Origin: Candidatus Fermentibacterota bacterium
Lineage (GTDB): Bacteria > Fermentibacterota > Fermentibacteria > Fermentibacterales > JCC-6
Direction: 5' to 3'
NCBI GenBank assembly: GCA_029571005.1
Contig: JAKPTG010000013.1
Location: 1 to 40,349 of the forward strand
DNA length: 40,349 nt
Part shown: piece by piece, positions 13,993-17,203 of the stretch
Layout: every line of letters begins with the position of its first letter
Position numbering within the stretch: the first letter of the stretch is position 1
The notes under the pieces: model-generated
Seen by the model: only the letters and a program-made list of their open reading frames with translations
The model's database searches: none
Told to the model about the DNA's origin: nothing
Translations under genes and position numbers: made by a program

Positions 13993-14069
13993 TGGCGGTC
14001 CGGACGAGACTCGAACTCGCAACTTCCGGCGTGACAGGCCGGTGCTCTAACCAATTGAACTACCGGACC
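13993..14069 (-). tRNA. tRNA-Asp (anticodon GTC)
   Basis: A 77-nt cloverleaf with CCA encoded. The acceptor GGTCCGG pairs with CCGGACC, the D stem is GTTC/GAGC, and the anticodon stem CCGGC/GCCGG holds loop CTGTCAC. The T arm has TTCGAGT in its loop, the discriminator is G and the end is CCA. It has its own promoter (14085-14113) and terminator (13951-13980). Confidence 0.97.
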
Positions 14070-14215: not shown

Positions 14216-14815
14216 ATGAGAGTACCTTTGATTGCGTTGGCGCTGATGGGGTGCTGGGCCTCCGCCTACGACGTGGAGATCGGCTCCAACGACTTCCCCT
14301 ACAACGCACCGCTCTGCGCTAATTGAACCGAGTCTTTGCGCTACCAGGTGGTAGTGCTCGGCAGCGAAATCGGCAATGCGATGACCATCAACTCCTTCGC
14401 CTTCAAGCCCACTTCCGGGGAAGGCGTTGTATTCGACGAATTCACGGTTTACATGGGGCCCGCTGCGGGGAATACGCTGGGCAGCGACTTCATGGCGAAC
14501 TACTCCGGAAGCAGGACCAAGGTGTACAGCCACACCAGCGTATCCTTCGCTCCCAGCGGAGGCTGGGTGACCATCCCCCTGGATACTCCCTACTTCCACG
14601 CCGGAACCGGCAACCTGATAATAGAAGTGGAATGGCCGGACGGAGAACAGGAGATATACGCGGGTTACTGGACGACAACCGGTGCAAGGCTTCTTACCGC
14701 CTCCTACGGGAGTTCAACGGGGTACGCCTACGATTTCTGCCCGAACCTCCTACTCTCGGGCACCCTCGATCTGGCACCCATGACGTTCGGATCCATAAAG
14801 GCCACTTTTCAGTAG
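14216..14815 (+). CDS. Candidate secreted selenoprotein 1 (CxxU, TGA read as Sec)
   Basis: Read through one in-frame TGA (14324-14326, residue 37), this gene encodes 199 residues. ATG 14216 follows AAGGGAG. A signal peptide (MRVPLIALALMGCWASA) precedes the mature start YDVEIGSNDFPYN, then a C-x-x-U motif (CAN-Sec), then a beta-rich domain ending at TAG. The domain resembles small secreted beta-sandwich repeats of FCB bacteria (FTVYMGPAAGNTLGSDF, then GGWVTIPLDTPYFHAGTGNL). The paralogue at 14855-15475 has TGA at the same aligned position with conserved flanks on both sides (VE-G---FP-N-P-C--U). Conservation after the TGA rules out simple decay. A hairpin fitting the bacterial SECIS rules starts 1 nt after the TGA. 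Function is unknown; CxxU suggests thiol/selenol redox or metal binding outside the cytoplasm. Standard gene callers would report only a 36-aa fragment plus a headless ORF. Confidence 0.85.
14328..14361 (+). promoter_or_regulatory. Bacterial SECIS hairpin, selenoprotein 1
   Basis: Outer stem CCGA/TCGG, a one-sided bulge of six bases, then an 8-bp upper stem GCGCTACC/GGTAGTGC closed by loop AGGT. The loop begins 20 nt after the last base of the TGA. The known bacterial SECIS rules ask for a loop about 16-37 nt after UGA, a short loop with G in its first two bases and an upper stem of at least 4 bp; all are met. Confidence 0.8.
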
Positions 14816-14831
14816 CTTTCCACGTGGCAGC

Positions 14832-14878
14832 GGGCGCCGCCCCATGAGGTTCACATGAAGCTTCTCCGGGCGGCGCCC
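14832..14878 (+). promoter_or_regulatory. Hairpin enclosing the start site of selenoprotein 2
   Basis: GGGCGCCGCCC (14832-14842) is perfectly complementary to GGGCGGCGCCC (14868-14878). The 25-nt loop contains the GAGG ribosome-binding site and the ATG of selenoprotein 2 (14855). A mini-ORF of four codons (ATG 14844, peptide MRFT) ends in TGA overlapping that ATG (ATGA). The structure could hide or present the start site. Confidence 0.55.
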
Positions 14879-15475
14879 CTCTTTATGCTGTTCGGCATCG
14901 GAACGGCCCGGGGCGTGGAGGTCGGTTACTCCAGCTTCCCTATGAATGTGCCCTTCTGCGGTGGTTGACACCCGGAGATACGCTGCCAGGTGGCGGTGCC
15001 GGGAAGCGTGCTTGGGGGAAGCGGGGTGATGGGGATCGAGGTGCATTCACTGTCGTTCAGGGCCGCAGGCGCCGACAGTGTTTTCTTCGGGAGCTTCACC
15101 GTGCGGATGGGTGTCATGGCGGGCGATTCCATGGGGACGGACTTCGCCGGAAACCTTGACCGCGGAGGCGCCGTCGTCTTCCACAGGGACGACGTGGTGA
15201 TCCGGCCGGGCCGGGGTTGGATCACCCTCCCCCTCGATACCCCTTACGTCTTCCGGGGGTCGGAGAACCTGCTGGTGGAGATAACCAACAGCGGAGCCGA
15301 CGGCGGGCTCCTGTACTGCGGCTACTGGGAGACCGAAGACGTCCGCACCGTTTACAGCGAGAGCCATCTGGCGGCGGGCGGTGAGCTTTACCGCTTCTCG
15401 CCCCACATGTATCTCGGCGGCGACGCCTTCCTGGATATGGGGCCGTTTCGTGCAAAACCGGCCGGTGACGAGTAG
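14855..15475 (+). CDS. Candidate secreted selenoprotein 2 (CxxU, TGA read as Sec)
   Basis: Paralogue of the gene just upstream (39-bp gap), 206 residues if the TGA at 14966-14968 (residue 38) is read as selenocysteine. It has a signal peptide (MKLLRAAPLFMLFGIGTA), then VEVGYSSFPMNVPF, then CGG-Sec. The following beta-rich domain is collinear with the first protein: R-x-Q-V-x-V just after Sec, FTVRMGVMAGDSMGTDF, then GWITLPLDTPYVFRGSENL. It ends in a charged tail at TAG. It has its own SECIS-like hairpin with the same loop and spacing as gene 1. ATG 14855 has GAGG 6 bp upstream. The alternative of two independent nonsense mutations at one aligned codon, with coding continuing, is unlikely. The function is unknown. 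Confidence 0.85.
14971..15003 (+). promoter_or_regulatory. Bacterial SECIS hairpin, selenoprotein 2
   Basis: Outer stem CCCGG/CCGGG, a five-base one-sided bulge (AGATA), a 7-bp upper stem CGCTGCC/GGCGGTG and loop AGGT. The loop starts 20 nt after the TGA, exactly as in gene 1. One upper-stem pair is A-T in gene 1 and G-C here, a compensatory change that supports the fold over mere coding conservation. Confidence 0.8.
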
Positions 15476-15763: not shown

Positions 15764-17203
15764 ATGAGGCTTGTTCTGTCACTGTTCATACTGGCCGCGA
15801 CCGCCGTTGCCCGGTGTCCCCTGGGTTTCTCCCCGGAGGAAGCATGCCATGGGGGCTCCCCGGGATGCGCCCTGTTCTCCGATGCGGATGGAAACGCCCG
15901 CTGCGACAACCCCGGACCCCAGCCGGTCACCGATCCGGAGCCGACCCGGGAGCCCGAACCGGTGGAGGAGACGGGACCCGCGGCGGAACCCGAACCGGCG
16001 GAGGAGACAGGCCCGACTGAAGAACCGGAGCCCGGGCCTGTGGAGGAACCGGAGCCCCATGCAGGAACTCCGACGGAGCGGGAGGAGCATCCGGCGGAGC
16101 CGGAAGCGTCTTCACAGCAGCCTGTTGAACCGATGTCCCCCGGAAGGGATGACCAAATGGAGGCCTCCCCGGCGGTCCCCGGCGAAGCCGCCGAAACGGA
16201 TACCGGTGCCGGGGCGGCGGATTCCCGGGCTTTTCACGGCTGCCCCATGGGCTGCACCGAGGAGCGGGCCTGCGCCGCCGAAAACCCGGGATGCGCCCTG
16301 TTCACGGATACCGACGGGAACGGGAGATGCGACAATCCCCTGCCCGGTGAAGCGCCGGACAGCGCCGAAGTATCGGCCGTTCCCGTGATCGGCTGTCCCC
16401 TCGGGCTTCCTCCGGAGGCCGCCTGCCCCGGGAGTCTCGCCATGTGTCCCCACTGGTTCGGGCAATCGAGGGCGGTTCCCTGCTCAAACCCGTCCGGGGG
16501 CGGCAGGAGGGTCGCTATCTCCCTGACAGCCCTCTCGGTGCTGATGATCATGTCAACCGTGCTCAGCAGACGGCTCAAGGGCAGAAAGCCCCACGAGAAG
16601 CTCCGGCGGAACCTGGCCTGCAGGACTGTCCACGGGTTGAGCCTGATCGTCCTTGGATTCGGCATCCAGGGGTGTTTCTGCCCCTTAGGGGCCTTCCAGT
16701 ACGTCTTTCTGAAGAACGGACCGGCGTTCCTGGGCTGGATGGGCGTCGCGATACTCGTCATCCCATTCCTGTTCGCCTCCTTCTTCGGAAGGATTTTCTG
16801 CTGCTGGGTCTGTCCCATGGGCGCCATGCAGGAGCTGGCCTTTCAGATACCCTCCCCGGGAAAGCTCAATCCCAGGGGGAGGGTGAGCAGGGCCGTAGGC
16901 CGATTCCGTTTCGTCGTTCTGGGAGCGGTGGTGACCCTCCTGCTCCTGATCCGCTCCGGGACCGTCTCGGTGCCCTGGCCGGCGGTTTTCTGCCGGCTCG
17001 ACCCCTTCCGCCCCATCTTCACCCTGTTCCTCTCCGGAAGTGCGGTGGCGGCGGGCGTTACATTGATTCTCTCGGTGTTCGTCAGGAGGTTCTTCTGCCG
17101 CTACCTGTGCTTCATGGGAGCGGCCCTCAGCCTGTTCTCACCGCTCCGGCTGTACAGCCGGATCAGGGGAAAGAAGCCGCACGGGGACGACTGCGAACCC
17201 TGA
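15764..17203 (+). CDS. NapH-like polyferredoxin membrane protein with N-terminal Cys repeats
   Basis: A 479-residue protein with two parts. After a signal peptide (MRLVLSLFILAATAVA) come three Cys modules of the form CP-x-G...AC...C...C-x-NP, at residues 18-50, 160-192 and 211-243. The first two end in a Ca-loop-like stretch (DADGNARCDNP, DTDGNGRCDNP). A linker of about 100 residues, rich in Pro and Glu (EPEP repeats), separates modules 1 and 2. The C-terminal half has four to five membrane helices with the NapH/YccM/NosR-type 4Fe-4S motifs CFCPLGAFQ (304), CWVCPMGAMQE (347) and CRYLCFMGA (445; the last lacks the usual Pro). Such proteins pass electrons between quinols and periplasmic partners. 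ATG 15764 follows GGGAAGG. The neighbours are the CxxU pair upstream and the exported-ferredoxin operon beyond the protease. Confidence 0.82.
   Translation: MRLVLSLFILAATAVARCPLGFSPEEACHGGSPGCALFSDADGNARCDNPGPQPVTDPEPTREPEPVEETGPAAEPEPAEETGPTEEPEPGPVEEPEPHAGTPTEREEHPAEPEASSQQPVEPMSPGRDDQMEASPAVPGEAAETDTGAGAADSRAFHGCPMGCTEERACAAENPGCALFTDTDGNGRCDNPLPGEAPDSAEVSAVPVIGCPLGLPPEAACPGSLAMCPHWFGQSRAVPCSNPSGGGRRVAISLTALSVLMIMSTVLSRRLKGRKPHEKLRRNLACRTVHGLSLIVLGFGIQGCFCPLGAFQYVFLKNGPAFLGWMGVAILVIPFLFASFFGRIFCCWVCPMGAMQELAFQIPSPGKLNPRGRVSRAVGRFRFVVLGAVVTLLLLIRSGTVSVPWPAVFCRLDPFRPIFTLFLSGSAVAAGVTLILSVFVRRFFCRYLCFMGAALSLFSPLRLYSRIRGKKPHGDDCEP

Follow-up and report, generated by a model that had tools for sequence, protein, structure and literature searches.

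A probable new family of putatively exported, beta-rich selenoproteins in Candidatus Fermentibacterota

The window analysed here, a stretch of 40,349 nt from a Candidatus Fermentibacterota genome of the order Fermentibacterales, carries two adjacent genes, ORF1 and ORF2, each of which contains a single in-frame TGA, at codon 37 and codon 38 respectively (Table 1). A preliminary description, made from the letters of the window alone, had recognized adjacent paralogues split by TGA at these codons, with flanks that align on both sides. Its coordinates and description are exact, and the alignment in fact runs over the whole length of the read-through products, which are 33-37 % identical from end to end, with the two TGA codons in one column. 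Both products have the motif P-x-C-x-x-[TGA] followed by R-x-Q-V-x-V. For each gene, standard gene callers would instead report a peptide of 36 residues followed by a headless ORF, and they would miss such genes throughout the order. A third, divergent member of the same type is present elsewhere in the window's own genome (G000:C11:14954-15568, L064), where the sequence around the TGA would read PFCGSUGDPGRRYQ.

Table 1. Positions of the paired genes, their predicted recoding signals and the flanking genes within the window
Feature	Position	Strand	Remarks
ORF1, Sec family member, 199 aa, U37	14216..14815	+	ATG at 14216; TAG at 14813-14815 included; best family match in the window
UGA, putative U37 of ORF1	14324..14326	+	TGA or Cys codon in 122/122 site-covering members
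ORF1 predicted bSECIS hairpin, GCGCUACC-AGGU-GGUAGUGC	14338..14357	+	
ORF2, paralogue, 206 aa, U38	14855..15475	+	ATG at 14855; TAG at 15473-15475 included
UGA, putative U38 of ORF2	14966..14968	+	Aligned with the family Sec site
ORF2 predicted bSECIS hairpin, CGCUGCC-AGGU-GGCGGUG	14981..14998	+	Compensatory A-U to G-C change; 36-nt fold
Membrane 4Fe-4S protein (Fer4_5, NapH/NosR-like), with Cys-rich, putatively exported N-terminal part	15764..17203	+	PF12801, E 2.8e-13
tRNA-Asp(gtc)	13993..14069	-	Other flank of the locus; kept in several relatives

When the genomes of the order, all of them MAGs, were searched with profiles of these proteins, matches were found in 40 of 42 using a two-sequence profile and in 41 of 42 using a 60-sequence profile. 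Each matched genome has between one and nine matches, almost all of which contain a single TGA, and the 13 named records among the matched genomes are all Candidatus Fermentibacterota (Fermentibacteria, Fermentibacterales, Aegiribacteria or Hyd24-12). From the better matches we aligned 123 distinct members, one of them truncated so that 122 cover the site; a few weaker matches with an additional stop were left out. The aligned codon is TGA in 109 of the 122 and Cys in the remaining 13 (10 TGC and 3 TGT), with no other residue represented, and a second in-frame TGA is absent from all 122. This pattern of TGA and Cys at the aligned site is far beyond chance. The preliminary description had proposed looking for homologues with Cys in place of TGA and had held that homologues ending at this codon would refute its interpretation; the former exist and the latter do not, every member either continuing through TGA or having Cys. 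The segment of ORF1 downstream of the TGA is under purifying selection as a protein, since comparison with the orthologue from the other congeneric genome gives dN of 0.19 and dS of 1.53, a dN/dS ratio of about 0.12 that is approximate because dS is near saturation.

An in-frame TGA would by itself also be permitted by global reassignment of the codon (to Trp or Gly, for example), by pseudogenes or by sequencing errors, explanations that can for practical purposes be dismissed. At least five neighbouring genes in the window, five of them with Pfam support, end normally at TGA, and the codon is thus not globally reassigned. Sequencing error is ruled out because the TGA recurs in 109 distinct genes, which come from about 40 genomes. 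Recoding of TGA and pseudogene formation are ruled out by these ordinary TGA stops, by the presence of exactly one TGA in every TGA-bearing member, always at the Cys-equivalent site, by the purifying selection downstream of it and by the conservation of the hairpin described below. The window's genome (1.87 Mb in 125 contigs, 92.6 % complete) contains a tRNA-Sec scoring 72.7 bits against a cut-off of 47, together with SelA, SelB and SelD, all over their cut-offs and with SelA adjoining SelB; the complete set of components for which a search had been suggested is therefore present. SelD (G000:C2:4807-5727, L016) has a single in-frame TGA of its own, read as ...CAGUAGKM...

The 45 nt that follow the TGA in the Sec genes are predicted to form a more stable fold than do shuffles of synonymous codons (mean z -1.58), as compared with values of -0.14 to -0.45 in later segments of the same genes and +0.54 in the Cys genes. 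The family hairpin has the form GCUACC-AGGU-GGUAGU, with an AGGU loop in 88 of the 109 Sec genes and a loop that starts 19 or 22 nt downstream of the UGA. Among the Sec genes, 97-100 % form a standard pair at each of the six core positions, with exchanges between C-G and U-A (70/35) and also between U-A and C-G, whereas in the Cys genes one of the six never pairs, one does so in 16 % and one in 23 %. Published constraints on bSECIS elements specify a loop of 3-9 nt with G in the first two positions, a stem of 4-16 bp, a location 16-37 nt after the UGA and an MFE of at most -7.5 (PMC13188914), and these are satisfied at the site by 92 % of the Sec genes and by none of the 13 Cys genes, and by 7-33 % in later segments. 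The ORF1 hairpin passes; that of ORF2 is seen only in a 36-nt fold, the minimum-energy fold of 48 nt being in silico a longer and better-scoring alternative pairing. SelB and tRNA-Sec would thus decode the UGA as selenocysteine under the guidance of the AGGU-loop hairpin just downstream, and on the sequence evidence it is almost certain that the UGA codons of ORF1 and ORF2 are decoded in this way. The hairpin encodes R-Y-Q-V-V-V in Sec members, and most Cys members have R-Y-Q-T-L-Y instead; this suggests an RNA constraint behind part of the apparent protein motif. The contrast between Sec and Cys genes is in effect a natural experiment, in which a change from Sec to Cys would free both the SECIS hairpin and the residues that it forces.

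In a tree of the members and one copy from outside the order, the Cys genes interleave among the Sec groups, and the distribution of the two labels requires three changes, of which well-supported branches force at least two. Most Sec sites are CxxU, with some paralogues having CU (PFGCU), CxU (PFCHU) or no nearby Cys at all (APIGIGU). Because the partner Cys varies in position or is absent, Sec is the conserved element of the site, and it is more conserved than the partner Cys in the sequences compared. The earlier proposal of a new CxxU selenoprotein family is accordingly upheld as regards the family and its Sec, but CxxU cannot be taken as its defining feature.

No match to the family was found in Pfam, NCBIfam or among PDB sequences, and 60 members gave no meaningful NCBIfam or Pfam match. 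An AF2 model based on a 60-sequence alignment (pLDDT 91.5, pTM 0.85) consists almost entirely of strands, with the Sec in a loop preceding strand 41-47 and a helix at residues 3-14. The N-termini of ORF1 and ORF2 resemble signal peptides, and nearly all members have a hydrophobic N-terminus, in both cases as judged by eye only; we infer from this that the family proteins are very probably secreted. The exported product would be a small beta-rich domain in which an N-terminal loop holds the Sec, usually with a Cys nearby. A thioredoxin fold is not indicated, the model being nearly all strands and no thioredoxin being present among the PDB fold matches listed; comparison with the PDB yielded weak and uninformative matches to beta-sandwiches at best (TM about 0.5 or below), and no structural homologue with known function. 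The best fold match among viral models is an uncharacterised phage protein (TM 0.73). A viral origin was rejected as no sequence relative was found in viral contigs.

Relatives of the domain occur in 15 of about 343 genomes outside the order, for the most part within large open reading frames. By profile these beta-sandwich domains are the same domain as that of the family (E 4e-4 to 3e-23), and several stand behind a hydrophobic N-terminus or within a large, apparently exported protein. They differ from it in belonging to much larger proteins, in lacking a TGA and in mostly having Tyr at the Sec position (Tyr in 19 and Cys in 1 of 28 aligned domains). As the domain is non-redox elsewhere, its Sec-bearing form would be a test case for the gain of Sec. 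Since the outside relatives are domain repeats in large, apparently exported proteins, 27 of 28 of them without Cys at the site, a structural or surface role for the Sec might be envisaged, such as a cross-link between exported beta domains without turnover. We regard this as improbable, given the same linkages to a membrane electron carrier and thioredoxin-like proteins that are described below; moreover, Sec is a costly residue that, elsewhere, is known chiefly from redox or catalytic sites. One of these 15 genomes (G161, outside the Fermentibacterota), with a SelA over its cut-off, has a single short Sec-type copy with the site PFCGGU (L155:1501-2103, - strand), which in the tree groups, by long branches, with the third family member of the genome that contains the window and could possibly reflect horizontal transfer.

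A catalogue from May 2026 comprises 119 prokaryotic selenoprotein families, none of which matches the new family (PMC13188914); the earlier suggestion, made without a search, that no selenoprotein of such architecture had been described is thus borne out against this catalogue, Pfam, NCBIfam and PDB sequences. We found no paper linking Fermentibacteria with selenocysteine, nor any literature on selenium in the phylum, although preprints and most subscription journals were outside the search and a prior description is possible; the Aegiribacteria genome paper makes no mention of selenium. The catalogued CxxU selenoproteins (for example SELENOW-like, AhpD-like and GrdA; PMC13188914, Table 1) likewise have one in-frame UGA with a bSECIS just downstream and a Cys at the third position ahead of the Sec, the last as in most members of the new family, which is distinguished from them by its lack of NCBIfam or Pfam matches, its beta-rich fold, its putative export and the varying position of its partner Cys. 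The mechanism of incorporation is ordinary; what is new is the family of proteins, together with its fold and distribution. It would add a large selenoprotein family with no catalogued sequence relative, a non-thioredoxin fold and a putative extracytoplasmic location, and would make the Fermentibacterota unusually rich in selenoproteins, with up to nine matches per genome from a single family.

In at least 30 genomes, according to our own mapping of loci to genomes, and in all three families of the order, the window-type orthologue is followed by a Fer4_5 membrane protein, usually 26-300 nt from the end of the orthologue or of its tandem partner. The matches of the window's Fer4_5 protein to NapH and NosR are below the cut-offs of those families. 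Its putatively exported N-terminus is Cys-rich and EF-hand-like, with two to three repeats of the form CPLGxxPEEAC...CALFxDxDGNxRCDNP. A possible additional Sec at the end of this gene (CEP-TGA, 17201-17203) was rejected, as orthologues use different stops close to this point and have no conserved continuation. A tRNA-Asp gene is often present on the opposite flank of the window-type locus. The other paralogues have no common neighbour beyond single genera, and most have no shared neighbour, which limits the link with an electron carrier to one subfamily. Downstream of the members of the PFGCU subfamily (G196-type loci L196-L198; G009, G016 and G005) comes an exported protein of about 215-240 aa that is conserved and matches nothing in Pfam.

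A secreted thioredoxin-like protein (DFTNxxCGPC and variants, Omp28-like) is encoded near 12 of the 13 Cys members, in several cases with a T9SS-type tail. Nine of these genes are directly upstream on the same strand at a distance of 35-56 nt, one more is upstream on the same strand (L214) and the remaining two are on the opposite strand within 1.05 kb. These neighbours are weak relatives of the Omp28-related selenoprotein NF045500 (GOS_C in PMC13188914), which is exported, as is inferred for the new family, but is a thioredoxin-like protein with UxxC and unrelated to it in sequence, and is thus related to the family as a neighbour and not as a homologue. In genome G022 another such weak relative, an Omp28-like exported protein (L047:323-1321, - strand), lies beside a Sec member and is itself read through a TGA at the first active-site Cys (EFTSTGUGSCG); this TGA makes it a probable second selenoprotein beside the first, distantly related to NF045500.

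We consider it quite probable that these genes represent an undescribed Fermentibacterota selenoprotein family whose members are extracytoplasmic selenol/thiol redox proteins, with export, exchange and the source of electrons all inferred and no experiment available. That the Sec has a redox role is likely, but the activity is untested. The family protein would act outside the cytoplasm as a selenenylsulfide/dithiol exchange partner, and the Cys-bearing paralogues would, by inference from gene order, work with the secreted thioredoxin-like protein. The NapH/NosR-like membrane Fe-S protein may feed electrons through the envelope to the family protein, an assignment that is plausible without quite being the one to be expected. 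Members without a nearby Cys (GIGU) poorly suit a simple CxxU exchange, and these, like the CU members, would be easier to accommodate if the Sec were a ligand for a metal or metalloid (Hg, As or Cu, for example) in a secreted binding protein without redox function; metal binding has been proposed for several of the catalogued selenoproteins, and as many as nine matches per genome would suit a binding protein. The genes linked to family members, for a membrane electron carrier and for thioredoxin-like CxxC proteins, point instead to electron transfer, and we think a metal ligand unlikely, although it and the structural cross-link are the two alternatives to a redox function that remain live, recoding and pseudogenes being excluded.

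If the redox reading is extended, these phylum-wide secreted beta-rich selenoproteins, in which Sec would have been gained on a domain that has no redox residue elsewhere, might together with the Fe-S protein and the Omp28-like thioredoxin constitute a selenium-based extracytoplasmic electron relay, a suggestion that we offer only tentatively. Such a relay would include a thioredoxin partner that sometimes itself bears Sec, and up to nine copies of the family protein per genome. The window also encodes a subtilase (PF00082; 17460-19163, - strand) with a sub-threshold FlgD-Ig/Por_Secre_tail C-terminus, which suggests that a T9SS-like secretion system may be present in this genome.
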